Positions 54,658 to 64,000 of a DNA stretch of 64,000 nt are shown here, in pieces. This stretch comes from Oscillospiraceae bacterium (GTDB lineage: Bacteria; Bacillota; Clostridia; UBA1212; UBA1255): assembly GCA_015069185.1 (NCBI GenBank), contig SVJB01000002.1, positions 109,089 to 173,088 of the forward strand, in the 5' to 3' direction. The position numbers and the translations under genes were made by a program. The notes below the pieces were generated by a model. The model had not been told where the DNA came from and did not search any database. It worked only from the letters and a program-made list of their open reading frames with translations. Position 1 is the first letter of the stretch, and every line of letters starts with the position of its first letter.

Positions 54658-54701
54658 GACAAGGTGTGGGAAGTTTGTTCGGAGGCAAAAAGTGGTATAA
54701 A

Positions 54702-56357
54702 ATGAGGCTGAATATCTTAAAAAAAGCAATAATAATCGGATTATGTTGTATAGCCGCAATTGTGGTTGCTTTTGTTATGAAATCGAGCCCGGAACCGGTT
54801 CAGGCGATAGAATCTGATGAGTTAATGCCTTGGCAATCCAATTTAGTCTCAGAGATTAATATAATACGTGATAAATATGGATTGTCTCATCTTGAATGGT
54901 CGTTTTCATGTAATGATAGTGAGAAAATCCTGTCTACCATTCATAATGGCAGCATCTACAGTGATGATGAGCTTTTCACCAAATATCTCGTATCTTACTG
55001 GTTTAATTCAGATAACTCAATTTTTCTTAAAGAAAATACAAAATATGTATATGTAAATATTGAACTTCAGGATGAAGTGCTGACTGCTTCTTTATATTTT
55101 CCCGGTGAAAATAAGACTCTGGAGGACAACGCACAGGTATCTTACTATTCCAAAGGAAATACTGAACATTATGATATGGAAGCAGTAATTGCTTCAAAGA
55201 GGCCAACTGTTCAAGCTCCTGAGGACACGGTAACCAGCCCTGTTTTCTTAGACACAAATATTCAAATTCCTATATATCAGTTGGATAATATATACGATTT
55301 TTCTAAATATATTCAAGCTAGTGATGTTGGGAAAATTATATTGATACAGACAGATTTTTACAGAGTACAGGAAATTGTTTCACCTGAGACAGAGGCTCCG
55401 ATGGAAACAGAATTACCTGATGAGACAGAGGCTCCAACGGAAACAGAATTACCTGATGAGACAGAGGCTCCGACAGAAACCAATAATTACATATATGCAG
55501 TAGCTGTAAACAACTATGGCGTTGCAAGCACAGAAAAGATTACTGTTAGTTATCAAGAACTCCAGTATTATAATGCCAATACTTCTACTCCGGGTGATTA
55601 CTGTATGACAATTAATCCAAGTGGCCAGGTGGAACAGTACGGACATGTTATTTTGCAATGTCGACCAATAGAAAAAACAGCTAAATATGTTTTTGAGATT
55701 ATATCGCCTAATGGAACTGAAAAAAAGATTATTAGAAATTCAAATGGCATGATATGGAATCCTAATGAATGTGGCACATATAGTGTTTGCATGTATTCAA
55801 TTATAAACAATAATGGAGTGGAAACCAGATCAGAGAGCATAGAATTTACGCTAGAGGTAAATGAATTTATTAATGTTGAGATTAAAATCCCATCGTTAAC
55901 ATTTACAGAAGGGACAGGCTTTATAAAAAATGATGAACTTGGTACGATATATGGAGTAGAGCCGGGTACAACTGTTGGCACATTGATTAATGCCGCAGTA
56001 TTGGTTGATGCAGATGAAAACATAATACTGTATGTTGAGAATAAGACTGAAACCGATAATTTGGGTACCGGGACACAGATTACTGTGCAGTCATCTGATG
56101 GAAAGAATATATACCATACATACACGATACTTTGTTATGGCGATATTAACGGAGACGGTCTTGTTGGTATTGCAGACTTTGCAAAGCTTAGAGCTTACAT
56201 ACTTGGAAAGATCGAGCTTGAAGGAGCGCTTAGAACTTGCGCAGATGTTAATTTTGATGGTACAATAGGCATTGCTGACTTTGCTAAATTAAGAGCAGCT
56301 CTGCTGAATAAAATTATTATTGAACAAACAAAGCAAGCCAGCATAGACGAGGTGTGA
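54702..56357 (+). CDS. Secreted dockerin-containing protein
   Basis: The 551-residue protein has an N-terminal signal or anchor helix (about residues 7-27), a region of unknown fold to about 225, a TETELPDETEAP repeat linker, two beta-rich modules (one like a fibronectin or Ig domain near 290-385), and a C-terminal type I dockerin at about 480-540. The dockerin has both calcium repeats: GDINGDGLVGIADFAKLRAY and ADVNFDGTIGIADFAKLRAA. Dockerins bind cohesin domains, usually to assemble enzyme complexes on the surface. No catalytic domain was recognised. ATG 54702 is used; GGAGG is 16 bases upstream, rather far, and GTG 54666 is the alternative. Confidence 0.8.
   Translation: MRLNILKKAIIIGLCCIAAIVVAFVMKSSPEPVQAIESDELMPWQSNLVSEINIIRDKYGLSHLEWSFSCNDSEKILSTIHNGSIYSDDELFTKYLVSYWFNSDNSIFLKENTKYVYVNIELQDEVLTASLYFPGENKTLEDNAQVSYYSKGNTEHYDMEAVIASKRPTVQAPEDTVTSPVFLDTNIQIPIYQLDNIYDFSKYIQASDVGKIILIQTDFYRVQEIVSPETEAPMETELPDETEAPTETELPDETEAPTETNNYIYAVAVNNYGVASTEKITVSYQELQYYNANTSTPGDYCMTINPSGQVEQYGHVILQCRPIEKTAKYVFEIISPNGTEKKIIRNSNGMIWNPNECGTYSVCMYSIINNNGVETRSESIEFTLEVNEFINVEIKIPSLTFTEGTGFIKNDELGTIYGVEPGTTVGTLINAAVLVDADENIILYVENKTETDNLGTGTQITVQSSDGKNIYHTYTILCYGDINGDGLVGIADFAKLRAYILGKIELEGALRTCADVNFDGTIGIADFAKLRAALLNKIIIEQTKQASIDEV
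55386..55481 (+). repeat. 36-bp in-gene tandem repeat (about 2.7 copies)
   Basis: A 36-bp unit beginning GAGACAGAGGCTCC is repeated almost exactly and encodes ETEAPTETELPD. It forms an acidic, flexible linker. Confidence 0.85.
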
Positions 56358-56362
56358 ATCGT

Positions 56363-57832
56363 ATGAAGAAGCGTTTATTGTTTTTAGTAGCTATTTTGCT
56401 TATAAATATATTTTCTATCAGCACCCCTATGGGAAAGAGTTTTGCTGCCGAGGATGAAGTGACTGCGTCGCTAGACAAAACATCTCCTTATGCAGGACAG
56501 CAGGTCGCTCTTACAATTGGGTATAACTGTCAGTATATTGTACTTGGCTCTATCATCAAAGTACAGATTCCTGACGGTCTTATTTATAAAAAATATGAAG
56601 AGGTTGGAAATACTCCTGTAGATAAGGTAGATGTAACAGATGATGTTATAACTATAATACAGGCAGAGGGTGAAGAAAAGAAAACCAGCTTAGTTACTAT
56701 TTACTTTACTGTGGATTCATCGCTGGCAGTAGGAAAAAAATGTACATTTAGTATTACTATGACTGAAACAACGGATGAAAACTTTATAAACTATTATCCA
56801 AACGCAAAGATGCAGGTATCTTTGACTGTGGCGGCAAAGCCTACACCTACTCCGTCACCGACGCCATCTCCCTCACCCACACCGACACAGAAACCAACAG
56901 CTACGGCGACACAGAAACCAACAGCTACACCAACACAGAAGCCAACAGCTACACCAACACAGAAGCCAACAGCTACACCAACACAGAAGCCAACAGCTAC
57001 GCCGACGCAGAAGCCAACAGCTACGCCAACGCAGAAGCCAACGGCTACACCAACACAGAAGCCAACGGCTACACCAACACAGAAGCCAACAGCTACGCCA
57101 ACGCAGAAACCAACTCAAACACCCATAATTACGCCTGTCGTAACAGCACCAATAGAGAGTCCATCTGCATCTCCTGATATTACGCTACCACCGTCTACAC
57201 CGGTCATTCCTGAAAATTTTATCTCAACAGTAACTGATAAACAAACATTTATGGTTGGATATGTGGATGGAGATAAATTTGACGGCTCGCCTATCCTGGA
57301 GGTAATTGACATAACATTGTCAGAAGAAGAAAGTGCAGATTTGATTTACAGAGCTATAAATGAAAATTTAGGAGAACTTTCATGTATCGCTGTATATAAG
57401 TTGTGGCTTGTTGAAAATGAAAGTATATTTATACCTGAAAAGTTACTTACATTTATAATGACAACAACTGATGAAATGAATAATTATGAAGAATATTCAA
57501 TTTTATACATAAATGACAGTTTAGAAGTAACAAAGCTTCCTTATACATTTGAAAATGGAGTTTTATCGTTTAATAATGCTAATTCAGGATACTTTGCACT
57601 AGTGGGAAAGAGTAAAATCTCAATTCCTGAAAATACTCCTGATGTACCATTGACAACACATGTACCTTCTGTGGATAATGATGATGTTGTTTCTCCCGGT
57701 ACTTTTATAATATCACTTATTGTTACTGCCTTTATATCACTATGGGTAGGTGTTGGAATAGGTTTTCTTATTTGGGGAAAAAATAAAAAGAAAACAAGAT
57801 ATTCAAGCCGCAAAACAGGAGGCTGGTATTGA
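56363..57832 (+). CDS. Surface protein with beta-sandwich domain, TPTQKPTA repeats and C-terminal anchor
   Basis: The 489-residue protein has a signal peptide (cleavage near KSFAAEDE), an Ig-, DUF11- or cohesin-like beta domain (about residues 30-160; [20 protein letters not shown]), ten copies of an eight-residue TPTQKPTA linker (about 173-252), a second folded region (about 285-420), and a single membrane helix (about 450-475) with a basic tail ([12 protein letters not shown]). It is thus anchored with most of the chain outside. GAGGTG in the end of the preceding gene is its ribosome site; the start is ATG 56363. Next to a dockerin protein, the first domain might be a cohesin partner, but this is a guess. 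Confidence 0.7.
56879..57118 (+). repeat. 24-bp tandem repeat, 10 copies
   Basis: Ten units of 24 bp, such as ACACCAACACAGAAGCCAAC plus AGCT, encode TPTQKPTA. Only silent or single-base differences separate most copies, which suggests recent expansion or gene conversion. Confidence 0.9.
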
Positions 57833-58794
57833 TGAGGGAAAGTAAAATTTCACGGAAGATATTTAAAATAATATTATTTACATTGATTTTTTCCCTTGTC
57901 TGTGTACATTCAGCTACGTTTCTTCTGAGTGCTGAGAATGGAGATGGTGAGGTAACTCAATCTCCAGCTGTTGGCGAGGAGGAAACTGTTGAGCCGGAAA
58001 AGAGTCCGGAAGCAACTACTCCGGAAATCACTCCTGTTGTGACGCCGATAGAGCCCACGCCGATTGAGCCCACACCAATCGCTCCGACGCCGATTGAGCC
58101 GACGCCGATTGAGCCGACACCAATCGCTCCGACGCCGATTGAGCCGACGCCGATCGAGCCGACGCCAATAGAGCCGACACCAATTGAGCCAACACCAATT
58201 GAGCCGACGCCAATCGAACCGACGCCAATCGAACCGACGCCGATCGAGCCGACACCGATCGAGCCGACGCCAATAGAGCCCACACCAATTAAGCCGACAC
58301 CGATTGAGCCCACCCCAATCGAACCGACTCCAATCGAACCGACTCCAATCGAACCGACGCCGATTGAGCCCACACCAATTGAACCGACTCCAGGGGAAAC
58401 AACCCCAGAACCAACTCCTACGATTACACCGGAGCCTACACCCAAACCCACGCCATCTCCTACCTTGCAACATCTTACTGTACCCCCGTACTATATTGAA
58501 GGTGAGACTGTTGCACCGGAAACAACTCCCGGTTCAACCCCTGACACAACTCCGGTAGCTACTGAATCTGCTCCGGTAATAAATCCGGATAGTATGTCAC
58601 AAATTGATAATCAGCCTCAGCAGGTAGATTCACCTTTATCTGCATTTATAAAATACTTATCATATGGACTGTATGGCGTTGCTGGCTTTGCAGTTGTATA
58701 TGCCGTGATAGCAATATTTGTTTTACTTGTTTTCGGTAAAGACATTTCTATTTCGGGTTTGAAAAATTCAAAGAGAGAAAAGAATAAAAGATGA
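57832..58794 (+). CDS. Membrane-anchored TPIEP-repeat surface protein
   Basis: The 320-residue protein consists of a signal peptide (about residues 8-30), a short acidic stretch, 23 copies of TPIEP (residues 71-185), a further Thr/Pro-rich part, one membrane helix (about 278-300) and a basic tail. It has no folded domain and looks like a wall-spanning stalk or spacer. AGGAGG eight bases before ATG 57832 sets the start, which overlaps the preceding stop (TGATG). The next gene overlaps its end by four bases. Confidence 0.75.
   Translation: MRESKISRKIFKIILFTLIFSLVCVHSATFLLSAENGDGEVTQSPAVGEEETVEPEKSPEATTPEITPVVTPIEPTPIEPTPIAPTPIEPTPIEPTPIAPTPIEPTPIEPTPIEPTPIEPTPIEPTPIEPTPIEPTPIEPTPIEPTPIEPTPIKPTPIEPTPIEPTPIEPTPIEPTPIEPTPIEPTPGETTPEPTPTITPEPTPKPTPSPTLQHLTVPPYYIEGETVAPETTPGSTPDTTPVATESAPVINPDSMSQIDNQPQQVDSPLSAFIKYLSYGLYGVAGFAVVYAVIAIFVLLVFGKDISISGLKNSKREKNKR
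58042..58386 (+). repeat. 15-bp tandem repeat, 23 copies
   Basis: Twenty-three exact-length units such as ACGCCGATTGAGCCG encode TPIEP; two copies have Ala and one has Lys for Glu. Synonymous variants (GAG/GAA, CCG/CCA, ATT/ATC/ATA) occur, but length never changes. Confidence 0.92.
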
Positions 58795-59716: not shown

Positions 59717-61579
59717 ATGATGAATAAAATTGTAATACGTGTATTTTTGTTATTGCTGTTATCAGCAATGATGTTTTCATTGATTGGTTGTACAACAAAT
59801 GATGAGCCACCTAAAATACCGGGCACAAACATCACTTTGTATACTGGTCCGTATTCAGAAGTAAATGGTGCTTTGGCAGGTGTGGATGATCTGGGAAGAG
59901 AGCTACTTTATGATGATCAGACTATAGATCTTAATGATAAGAAGGTAGGTATTTTTTATTTCTTATGGCAAGGGGAACATGGTACCAGTGGTCCATATGA
60001 TAACTATAAGATAGCAACAGAGACTCCAGAGGCACTCACCTCTGAAGCTAGATGGATCAGAAATGGAGGCGGTTCTGTTGGTCAGCATCACTTCTGGGGT
60101 GAACCATTATTCGGCTATTATAAGTCAAGTGATGACTGGGTTTTGAGAAAACATGTTCAGATGCTTGCAGATGCCGGTGTTGATTTTCTGGTTCTTGATG
60201 CAACAAACTCTTTCCCATATGTAGAGAGAGTCAAGCAAGTCATCGCGATCTGGTACGAGTATCTTGAACTCGGATATAAGGTCCCGAAGATTGCTTTCTA
60301 TACTAACTCCCAATCAGGAGCTACAATGAAAGCAATATACAACAATCTTCACAATAACAAAAAATTCAATGAGCAATATCCTCGCCTTAGTGAGTTGTGG
60401 TACAACTGGGATGGCAAACCTATGATTGTAGGTTTAGAAGCAGAGGCTAGTGATGAGATAAAGGAATATTTTACAATCAAGGAATCTACGTGGCCCAATG
60501 CCGGTAGAACAGATAATGGATTCCCCTGGATGGAATTTGACAGACTTCTATCTGACGATGCAGTTTACGGAGTAAACGGAAGAAAAGAAGTCCTTAATGT
60601 ATCAATTGCACAGCATTCTGCTACATGTACGATGAGTTTTACTGCGTGGTATGGTGCAAACGACCGAACAAGAAGCTGGCATGATGGTGTTAACGATACA
60701 TCAGAAAATGCAATTTTATACGGATATAACTTTGCAGAACAATGGGAATGGGCTCTTAAACAGGACACAGAGATGATCTTTGTTACAGGATGGAATGAAT
60801 GGGTAGCACAAAGACAACCTGTTTATGATACTAACAGACCTATTGTTTTTGTTGACTGCGCAGATCCTAATACAAGCCGTGACGCAGAGCCTATGAGAGG
60901 TCTTTTTGGAGATAACTACTATATGCAGCTTTGTTACTACATAGCGCAGTATAAGGGTGCAGCAAACAGAGTTAATGTTGGTGAGAATCAGACAATTGAT
61001 ATTAACGGAGACTTTTCACAGTGGGATGCAGCATCTGTAACAGCAAAATATCTTGACTACAGCAATGACACTGTTGACAGAGATTGTAGAGGTTTTGGTA
61101 GACTTAAGTATCAAAATACAACAGGACGTAATGACATTGTTAACATGAAGATTGCAAAAGATGCAGATAACTTGTATTTCTATGTAGATACTGCAGCTGC
61201 TCTTACCGCTCCGGAGGGAGAGACTTGGATGACATTGTTTATTGACAGTGGTAATAATGATAATGCTAACTGGTATGGTTATGACTTCAAGGTTGATCCT
61301 GCAAGCGGTAAGCTTTATAAGTCTAACGGTGACTGGAACTGGCAAGAGGTAGCTACTGTTACTGTAAAATATGAAGGTAACAAGTTAATGCTTAGTGTGA
61401 AACGTGCTGATATCGGTACACAAGATGCAGTTGATATTCAGTTCAAATGGGCAGACAACTATCAGAAGAATGAACTTGATACATATGATGTATGGACTCT
61501 GTATTGTGATGGTGATGCAGCTCCTTACGGAAGACTTAATTACGTATATTCAGAGGTAGCACATAAAACTTCAAAATAA
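59717..61579 (+). CDS. GH99-like secreted lipoprotein with C-terminal sugar-binding-like domain
   Basis: The 620-residue protein has a signal peptide with lipobox LIGC (Cys at about residue 25). Residues of about 70-430 resemble the GH99/GH71-like (WbsX-related) TIM-barrel, with KVGIFYFLWQGEHG, HHFWGEPLFGYY, ADAGVDFLVLDATNSFPY and the conserved VTGWNEWVA, where Glu would be catalytic. From about 430 to the end is a beta-sandwich like carbohydrate-binding family 9 (IDINGDFSQWDAAS, NLYFYVDTAAALTAPEG, LFIDSGNN). It probably acts on glycans outside the cell; endo-mannosidase is possible but unproven. Either of the first two Met codons may be the start. Confidence 0.78.
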   Translation: MMNKIVIRVFLLLLLSAMMFSLIGCTTNDEPPKIPGTNITLYTGPYSEVNGALAGVDDLGRELLYDDQTIDLNDKKVGIFYFLWQGEHGTSGPYDNYKIATETPEALTSEARWIRNGGGSVGQHHFWGEPLFGYYKSSDDWVLRKHVQMLADAGVDFLVLDATNSFPYVERVKQVIAIWYEYLELGYKVPKIAFYTNSQSGATMKAIYNNLHNNKKFNEQYPRLSELWYNWDGKPMIVGLEAEASDEIKEYFTIKESTWPNAGRTDNGFPWMEFDRLLSDDAVYGVNGRKEVLNVSIAQHSATCTMSFTAWYGANDRTRSWHDGVNDTSENAILYGYNFAEQWEWALKQDTEMIFVTGWNEWVAQRQPVYDTNRPIVFVDCADPNTSRDAEPMRGLFGDNYYMQLCYYIAQYKGAANRVNVGENQTIDINGDFSQWDAASVTAKYLDYSNDTVDRDCRGFGRLKYQNTTGRNDIVNMKIAKDADNLYFYVDTAAALTAPEGETWMTLFIDSGNNDNANWYGYDFKVDPASGKLYKSNGDWNWQEVATVTVKYEGNKLMLSVKRADIGTQDAVDIQFKWADNYQKNELDTYDVWTLYCDGDAAPYGRLNYVYSEVAHKTSK

Positions 61580-61699: not shown

Positions 61700-62320
61700 A
61701 TGATTGAAAATAGATTTTACATATGTGAGAAATGCGGAAACATAATTGGCATGGTGCATGATTCAGGAGTACCCATGATGTGTTGTTTGCGCCCAATGAC
61801 CAAGCTAGAGCCTGGTACAGTAGATGCCAGCAAAGAGAAGCATGTACCTGTTATTACTATAGAGGACAATTTGGTCAGAATTGATGTTGGGGCAATTGAG
61901 CATCCGATGACAGAGGAGCATAATATTTCCTGGATATATCTTCTGACTGACAAGGGTGGCCACCGCAAGGTGCTTAAGGCTGGTGACGCACCAGTTGCGG
62001 TGTTTTCTTTATATGATGAAAAACCAATTGCAGCATATGCATATTGTAATTTGCATGGCCTTTGGATGGATGAGGTTGAGAAGCTTCCTGTATGTGATTT
62101 GAAGCCGGTTGATACAAACACAAGTGAGAACTATGTTGTATGTAAATGCAATAATGTATCTTATTTTGATATTCTTGATGCAATTCATGGTAGCAAAAGT
62201 ATTGATTCGTTGCTTGATGTTTTTGAAAATGTTAAGAATACAACAAAATGTTCTACCGGATGCGGTGGATGTTACGATAAAGTTATTAAAATTGTTTCTG
62301 AATCAATGTCTAATGGCTGA
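61700..62320 (+). CDS. Desulfoferrodoxin (superoxide reductase) fused to a BFD-like [2Fe-2S] domain
   Basis: Superoxide reductase reduces superoxide to peroxide in anaerobes. The 206-residue protein has three parts. Residues 1-36 are a desulforedoxin-like FeS4 site with Cys9, Cys12, Cys28 and Cys29. Residues 45-130 are the catalytic neelaredoxin domain with iron ligands His48, His68, His74, Cys116 and His119 (YCNLHGLW). From 145 on is an added BFD-like domain with Cys148, Cys150, Cys188 and Cys191, which should bind [2Fe-2S]. Standard desulfoferrodoxins end near residue 125-130, so the last part is an extra electron-transfer module. AAGGAGG precedes the ATG. It is monocistronic. Confidence 0.88.
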   Translation: MIENRFYICEKCGNIIGMVHDSGVPMMCCLRPMTKLEPGTVDASKEKHVPVITIEDNLVRIDVGAIEHPMTEEHNISWIYLLTDKGGHRKVLKAGDAPVAVFSLYDEKPIAAYAYCNLHGLWMDEVEKLPVCDLKPVDTNTSENYVVCKCNNVSYFDILDAIHGSKSIDSLLDVFENVKNTTKCSTGCGGCYDKVIKIVSESMSNG

Positions 62321-62400: not shown

Positions 62401-62445
62401 TACAATTATTTGGTGTGATTAATTTTTACTTAGGAGAGAGGAAAA

Positions 62446-64000
62446 ATGATTTACAGAGCAGTTGCGGCAACATGTCCGGGCAAAAAAAGTGAACATAATT
62501 CTAATAATTTCTACCTGAATTCAAAGTATATTACAGATGAATATAAGACTTCTGAAATTTTATTAAAGCAGAAAAAAGACCAGGAAGGTTTACAGTTTTA
62601 CGCTTTGGCAGAGGGAAAAGGTAGCGACTCATATATAAATGAGGCGTCACTGATTGCTGTTAAGAAACTAGCAGATTTGCACGAGCAGTGGAAAGAACAA
62701 ACAATTGAAGGTGATGTTTGTGACGCTTTGCAAGGTTATATAGAAGATTACATAGATAATGCAAATCAGGTAATTTGTGCCAGACAACCTTCGGCAGGAC
62801 AAGGTAAGAGTATTATCTCTACTCTTGCAGTTATTGGTATTCATGATAAAGATGTTATTGCTTGTAACCTCGGAAATACACGTATCTATCTTTTCCGTAA
62901 AGGAAAACTTTCGCAAATTTCTGTTGATCATAATCAGGCTCAGCGCATGGTAGAGCTTGGTATTATTGATGAATCGCAGCTTATAGATAATCCTAAGCGT
63001 AAGAGACTCACACAATACTTAGGACCAATGCCCGCAAGCGAGCCGCTGGAACCTAACTGCGTTGAGATACATACACAGCAAGGAGATATGTTCTTGTTAT
63101 GTAGTATGACATTTTGCAATGTTGTAAATGATGAAGAAATCCAAAATATATTTGCAGATTCTCACAGCTTGTCTGAGATTGCAGACAGACTCATGAATCA
63201 GGCAAGTGAGAAAGGCCTTGTAAAAGATACAACAATCATGGTAGTTCGTGCAGTAAAAGATGTGGTTGCACCTGTTACAGTGGCGCCGATTGCAGCTAAC
63301 CATACTGCAAACACTATGAACTCTATTAATGCTGAATCAATTGCTGAAGAAGAAAAGAATGTTACAAAAACTATCGAGCGCAATGAAAATGCTAACAAAG
63401 GTGCTGCGGTAAGTGTGACAAAGAAGCAGAATAAAAAATTAAATAGTTCAGAGAGATCCGTAACAAAGAAAAGTAATAAAACAAAGAATAATGAAGGAGA
63501 AAAAATCTGGCCTGCATTGATTATATTTGGAATAAGTCTGGCTGTTGTTGTTTTTCTTGCCATATTTGGGATAAAAATATATAGAGATAATAAGGCAGAC
63601 CCAAAACCTAATGCAACGCCAATAATTAACGTAGAACCGTCGCCTACGCCTCTGATTACATTAGAGCCAACTCAGGTGCCTACAGGTACTCCTGAAATTA
63701 CTCCTCCTGTAGAAATAACACCTACTCCAACTTTGGAGCCTACAGCGACACCTACTCCTACTATAACACCAACTCCTACGGCTACTCCCACACAGAAGCC
63801 TACGGCAACACCAGAAATAACACCGGAGATAACACCAGAAATAACACCTGAGGCAACACCTGAGGCAACACCAGAAGCAACACCTGAGGCAACACCCGAA
63901 GCAACACCTGAGGCAACACCTGAGGCAACACCTGAGGCAACACCTGAGGCAACACCAGAAGCAACACCTGAGGCAACACCTGAAGCAACACCTGAGGCAA
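62446..64000 (+). CDS. Transmembrane PP2C-like pseudophosphatase with TPEA repeat tail (3' end outside window)
   Basis: This frame has no stop before the window end and is missing from the ORF track. GGAGAGAGG precedes ATG 62446. Residues 1 to about 265 align with PP2C-family Ser/Thr phosphatases (SEHNSNNFYL, FYALAEGKG, VIACNLGNTRIYLFRKG, FLLCSMTF, DTTIMVV). Most metal-binding Asp residues are replaced: Asn20 for the NxD Asp, Glu56 in AEG for DG, Asn144 in LGNTR for GDSR, Met221 in CSMTF for CSDG. It is therefore probably inactive. A Lys/Asn-rich stretch leads to one helix (about 355-377), then an extracellular Thr/Pro-rich region and TPEA repeats. The topology suggests a cytosolic regulatory domain coupled to a wall-spanning tail. 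Confidence 0.8.
   Translation, partial: MIYRAVAATCPGKKSEHNSNNFYLNSKYITDEYKTSEILLKQKKDQEGLQFYALAEGKGSDSYINEASLIAVKKLADLHEQWKEQTIEGDVCDALQGYIEDYIDNANQVICARQPSAGQGKSIISTLAVIGIHDKDVIACNLGNTRIYLFRKGKLSQISVDHNQAQRMVELGIIDESQLIDNPKRKRLTQYLGPMPASEPLEPNCVEIHTQQGDMFLLCSMTFCNVVNDEEIQNIFADSHSLSEIADRLMNQASEKGLVKDTTIMVVRAVKDVVAPVTVAPIAANHTANTMNSINAESIAEEEKNVTKTIERNENANKGAAVSVTKKQNKKLNSSERSVTKKSNKTKNNEGEKIWPALIIFGISLAVVVFLAIFGIKIYRDNKADPKPNATPIINVEPSPTPLITLEPTQVPTGTPEITPPVEITPTPTLEPTATPTPTITPTPTATPTQKPTATPEITPEITPEITPEATPEATPEATPEATPEATPEATPEATPEATPEATPEATPEATPEATPEA
63853..64000 (+). repeat. 12-bp tandem repeat running off the window (12 or more copies)
   Basis: Units of GCAACACCTGAG with few variants encode ATPE over and over. 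It continues to the last base of the window, so the copy number is unknown. Confidence 0.9.

Follow-up and report, generated by a model that had tools for sequence, protein, structure and literature searches.

We identified a family of PP2C-like proteins in one clostridial order that have lost the residues of the phosphatase metal centre and are probably kept as membrane-anchored binding modules, that is, as pseudophosphatases with an adaptor or sensor role at the membrane. The founding member lies at the end of a 64,000-nucleotide stretch of DNA (hereafter the window), and its features are listed in Table 1. A binding or adaptor role rather than an enzymatic one is suggested because the metal-binding residues are lost yet one copy is kept in nearly every genome of the order, and because the protein appears to be anchored in the membrane and to carry a tail that may reach the cell wall. 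From these features, which come from sequence and prediction, we infer the adaptor role, the lack of catalysis and the topology.

Table 1. Features of the PP2C pseudophosphatase gene and its product (window coordinates)
Feature	Coordinates	Strand	Evidence
Ribosome-binding site AGGAGAGAGG	62432..62441	+	sequence; just 5' of ATG
Membrane-anchored PP2C pseudophosphatase gene, 5' 518 codons	62446..64000	+	3' end past contig break
PP2C-fold domain, residues 1-271	62446..63258	+	AlphaFold pLDDT 92.3, pTM 0.91; PDB fold matches 1txo, 2xzv, 2pk0
Ser15 at phosphate-binding Arg position	62488..62490	+	alignment
Asn20 at first metal Asp (NeD)	62503..62505	+	alignment
Glu56 at bridging metal Asp (aDG)	62611..62613	+	alignment to tPphA
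Asn144 at M3 Asp (GDsR)	62875..62877	+	alignment
Flap-like segment, residues 158-195	62917..63030	+	among better conserved parts of domain
Met221 at metal Asp (cSDG)	63106..63108	+	alignment
Lys260 at last metal Asp (xDN)	63223..63225	+	ungapped alignment; D231 position; Asp261 one residue later
Basic low-complexity linker, residues 272-356	63259..63513	+	composition; Lys/Arg-rich
Single transmembrane helix, residues 357-379	63514..63582	+	hydropathy maximum 2.99 over residues 358-376
Acidic Pro/Thr-rich tail, predicted extracellular	63583..64000	+	composition
12-nt tandem repeat encoding TPEA	63804..64000	+	Tandem Repeats Finder, 16.4 copies, score 268

An initial sequence-only reading of the window had described this gene as lacking a stop codon. 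It is a real reading frame, still open after its 518 codons, and the missing stop reflects an assembly break: the window ends where contig C9 (173,088 bases) ends, within the TPEA-coding 12-nt repeat. In the window's genome, a 29-base repeat probe had two matching places, this one and the end of contig C37 (minus strand). Read from its repeat end, C37 encodes 28 further TPEA units and then a stop (TPEATPEIQV*), and the stop codon of this frame shares bases with the start codon of the following gene (ATGA). In the relative G002 (locus L060), the pseudophosphatase homologue is directly followed by a homologue of that next gene. Because of the shared repeat and the matching gene order, C37 very likely carries the 3' end, which the sequence-only reading had asked for. 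No exact overlap was detected where C9 and C37 would join.

The PP2C fold, which had been recognised from sequence motifs, was supported by profile, PDB and structural comparisons. Pfam PP2C_2 matched the protein with E=7.6e-5, just below the Pfam cut-off, and NCBIfam Stp1 (NF033484) with E=3.1e-32; the latter score (112 bits) lies below the curated cut-off of 230 bits, which places the protein outside the Stp1/PrpC equivalog. The PDB match to tPphA had an E-value of 8.8e-13 with a single sequence and 5.5e-35 with a family profile. Foldseek searches with the predicted domain gave PstP, tPphA and Stp1 as best matches (E=5.8e-19 and a target-normalised TM of 0.87 for PstP), and the beta-sandwich fold of the predicted structure assigns the domain to the PPM/PP2C superfamily. 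The mean entropy of the flap-like segment was 1.31, compared to 1.77 for the whole domain. Since this segment takes part in substrate binding in active PP2Cs (PMC12088040), its conservation here fits, but does not show, a domain that still holds a partner.

In the window protein, all five catalytic Asp positions and the phosphate-binding Arg differ from those of tPphA, PrpC and intact relatives. A competent PP2C has the Asp ligands of M1-M3 (D34, D119, D193 and D231 in tPphA) plus the NeD Asp, in place of which we found E56, N144, M221, K260 and N20, and an N-terminal phosphate-binding Arg, replaced here by Ser. Asn20, Glu56, Asn144 and Met221 had already been pointed out in the sequence-only reading, and alignment to tPphA, the intact relatives and PrpC upheld all four; the changes at the D231 and Arg positions were additional. 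That reading had also proposed structure prediction and comparison of the metal site with Stp/PrpC as a check, and the outcome is a predicted PP2C fold with an aligned metal site worse than claimed. Asp261 might pass for the last ligand, but an ungapped alignment places it at the Asn of the DN motif. With the metal centre and the Arg lost, the protein would not be expected to hydrolyse phosphate by the known PP2C route.

Exactly one such protein was present in 28 of the 31 genomes of the order, the exceptions being G003, G016 and G022; the window's own genome is 85% complete and most genomes compared are MAGs with gaps. A canonical PrpC-type PP2C of about 250 aa was found in all 31. The records that carry names are MAGs of uncultured Clostridia, for the most part from the gut of herbivores. 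The dN/dS values in close pairs were 0.016-0.044, pN/pS against the sister species, where dS is saturated, was 0.12, and invariant residues occur outside the metal site. The gene is under strong purifying selection. Pseudophosphatases (pseudoenzymes), as defined in PMC10211241, have an enzyme fold with catalytic motifs lost by sequence, and a further mark of them is retention under selection for another function; the family shows both the lost motifs and, from its occurrence and dN/dS values, the selection, presumably for a binding role.

Only one hydrophobic segment was detected in the protein, with a basic N side and an acidic C side. Hydropathy and charge, on which the topology is based, suggest a cytosolic PP2C domain by the positive-inside rule, the basic linker lying on the N side of the helix, and an outward tail. 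This is the arrangement that had been proposed earlier, and the outward tail gains further support from relatives. Degenerate transmembrane homologues from other Clostridia end in LysM (L083, L084, L086 and L129), one member of the order (L071) ends in three Big_3 domains, and the intact relatives L056, L077 and L126 have a transmembrane helix plus Big_2 or LysM. Because related transmembrane proteins end in such domains, an outward tail in contact with the wall is supported. A match of EssA (NCBIfam) over the transmembrane region (25.7 bits, cut-off 32.45) was rejected as compositional, and a Pfam search found no PASTA repeats in the tail. Three consecutive surface-protein-like ORFs (54666-58794, plus strand) each carry their own Pro/Thr-rich repeat, and the PASTA-type kinase of the window's genome has a stretch similar to the tail. 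Given these, the repeat tail is a generic spacer, not a special feature. The view that the TPEA-repeat design is unusual to one protein was not supported, as the layout is kept in the same 28 genomes; Pro/Thr-rich tails of this sort are also common in the window's genome.

A tree built from 59 sequences split the PrpC proteins (100/99) from a subfamily sharing an insertion after the NEDN motif, and the order's proteins formed one clade (100/100) inside that subfamily, placing the window protein with PP2Cs of T7SS/Tad loci and not with PrpC. Intact members of the subfamily mostly adjoin Ser/Thr kinase genes, and their loci include WXG100 and FHA-EssC (L077, L136) or Tad genes (L056, L137). A second degenerate clade in the subfamily carries LysM. 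One origin of all degenerate forms together was weakly rejected (AU p=0.042), and one origin of the window's order plus the LysM clade was not (AU p=0.10); catalysis was possibly lost more than once. A PP2C with all catalytic residues, one transmembrane helix and two LysM domains was detected in genome G167 (L126:3269-4876, plus strand) and is likely an active counterpart of the pseudophosphatase layout. The surroundings of the LysM-type degenerate PP2Cs of L086, L098, L129 and L130 are conserved: they include a phosphoglycerate mutase-like gene, and a DRTGG-like protein, a HATPase and a hydrogenase-like iron-sulfur protein are encoded some kilobases further.

Genomic neighbours of the gene differ between families of the order. 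Of the 22 order loci whose downstream DNA is visible, 15 have NuoE-, NuoF- and NuoG/GltD-like genes directly downstream on the same strand, in most cases at a distance of 16-200 bp. NCBIfam matches and the StnC layout (PMC10482914) suggest that this trio encodes a Stn-type electron-bifurcating transhydrogenase. An [FeFe] hydrogenase operon was rejected for the order because the third gene, which is NuoG/GltD-like, lacks a full match to a hydrogenase. The only genome with a real A6 hydrogenase at this place was G044, in which a LysM-type degenerate PP2C is followed by NuoE, a NuoF-GltD fusion and a group A6 [FeFe] hydrogenase (L084:1498-8861, minus strand). Gene order in the window's family runs PP2C-like, (Stn), small membrane protein, F15, amidase, Ser/Thr kinase, and CpaB-, CpaF- and TadB/C-like genes, the CpaF/Tad names resting on gene order and sequence appearance, with weak or no Pfam matches. 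A Ser/Thr kinase in a secretion/pilus locus is partly seen in the window's family and was not seen in the other order families read. Two kinases were found in the window's genome. One (Pkinase E=1e-23), four genes downstream on C37 (C37:19302-19850, minus strand; G000, L043), heads the divergent CpaB/CpaF/TadB/TadC-like genes and has the Lys and both catalytic Asp residues, with DFE instead of DFG. The other is of the PASTA type and lies elsewhere, adjoining the canonical PrpC; the sequence-only reading had named a kinase of this type as a possible partner, and no direct evidence for it in that role was found. The neighbourhood offers the C37 kinase and the Stn complex as partner candidates, neither of which is common to the whole order.

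Other genes around these loci were also observed. A desulfoferrodoxin fused to a BFD-like [2Fe-2S] domain (61700-62320, plus strand) is encoded directly upstream of the pseudophosphatase gene, and comparison with related loci showed no homologue in this position. A conserved neighbour of the pseudophosphatase gene within the window's family is a putative lipoprotein of 620 aa without a Pfam match (59717-61579, plus strand); L079 and L080 carry additional copies. Elsewhere in the window's genome (L096:8115-13649, minus strand; G000 contig C45), a set of genes resembles a sensory hydrogenase cluster: a SpoIIE-like phosphatase and a small ferredoxin of the thioredoxin type are encoded together with two [FeFe] hydrogenase-like genes.

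Several other explanations of the family were considered. Loss of catalytic residues would also be seen in a decaying phosphatase without function, but the selection data already refute this: an intact single copy almost throughout the order, dN/dS well under 0.1 and invariant residues outside the metal site leave it practically no probability. It is quite unlikely that the protein has remained a phosphatase that acts on a special substrate through a rearranged or reduced metal site (built, for example, from Glu56, Asp261 and water-mediated ligands). Glu56 and Asp261 are acidic and could hold metal in such a site, which is a point against the pseudophosphatase reading; the bridging Asp is Glu in 15/15 members of the window's family, Asp261 is near-invariant across the order, and some order members retain two or three Asp residues (L020, L023) or the NeD and aDG Asp. 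Partial sites do exist, as in the eukaryotic pseudophosphatases TAB1 and PHLPP2, which retain the ability to bind one metal (PMC12002173). However, the cSDG Asp, kept in all intact PP2Cs compared, is replaced in 28/28 order members by Met, Ser, Asn, His, Arg, Gly, Phe, Lys, Cys, Thr or Ala, with no conserved replacement ligand, and seven members of family f4 have Ser or Thr in place of the bridging Asp. The Arg is also gone in 28/28 and the xDN motif is altered.

A scaffold that places redox enzymes at the membrane (the Stn-type transhydrogenase or, in a relative, HydABC) and has no part in phospho-signalling appears unlikely. Such a role would account for the adjoining Nuo-like trio, which recurs in several families of the order, and for the redox genes that follow the degenerate relative in G044, but the trio is missing beside the gene in the window's genome, L060 (G002), L079, L080, L082, G017 and G020, most LysM-type relatives have no such adjoining genes, and the co-location may be plain synteny.

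The window protein resembles several known systems in part. PrpC/Stp1/PstP-type PP2Cs (PDB 1txo, 2pk0, 2j82) have a similar fold, strand order and flap-like region, with 18-24% identity in fold matches; the window protein differs from them in its five changed Asp ligands and Arg, its transmembrane helix and tail, an insertion of about 20 residues after NNFYLNS and its separate branch in the tree. The clostridial PP2Cs of T7SS/Tad loci (L077, L056, L136-L140) and the PP2C-TM-LysM protein L126 belong to the same subfamily, have the same NEDNFYxNG insertion and, in several cases, a comparable layout with a transmembrane helix plus Big_2 or LysM. Unlike the window protein, they keep the catalytic Asp residues, and most adjoin a Ser/Thr kinase gene. 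PHLPP2 and TAB1 have likewise kept the PP2C fold after metal-ligand loss, with a proposed scaffold or adaptor role (PMC12002173), but these are eukaryotic proteins with other domains and no transmembrane-wall architecture, and the comparison is by fold only. PASTA-type kinases (PrkC/PknB) share the plan of a cytosolic signalling domain, one helix and an extracellular wall-contacting part, whereas their domain has a kinase fold, not a phosphatase fold, and the window protein's tail lacks PASTA repeats. In the open-licence papers searched, no description of a bacterial PP2C pseudophosphatase family was found, which is weak evidence of novelty, nor was anything found on PP2C with Tad, LysM or type VII secretion.

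For the favoured reading as a pseudophosphatase adaptor or sensor, the following mechanism may be proposed. The PP2C-fold domain would be retained as a binding module, one helix would hold the protein at the membrane, and the Pro/Thr-rich tail would reach into or through the cell wall. The protein might then hold a partner at the membrane, candidates being a phosphoprotein, a Ser/Thr kinase or an operon-mate enzyme, and respond to wall contact. A broader and more tentative possibility, less likely than not, is a Clostridia-wide class of wall-spanning pseudo-PP2C receptors, related to the active T7SS/Tad PP2Cs, that would sense phosphorylation or the state of a kinase at one side of the membrane and the cell wall at the other. 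If true, such receptors would be a non-catalytic mirror of the PASTA kinases.

PP2C pseudophosphatases are known from eukaryotes, such as TAB1 and PHLPP2; here, the family is bacterial and near-universal in one order. A dead phosphatase domain with a tail that may reach the wall, and intact close relatives at hand for comparison, make it possible to test clearly whether PP2C folds serve bacteria as phospho-readers or adaptors. The family is also a warning that the fold alone is poor ground for annotating such genes as phosphatases.
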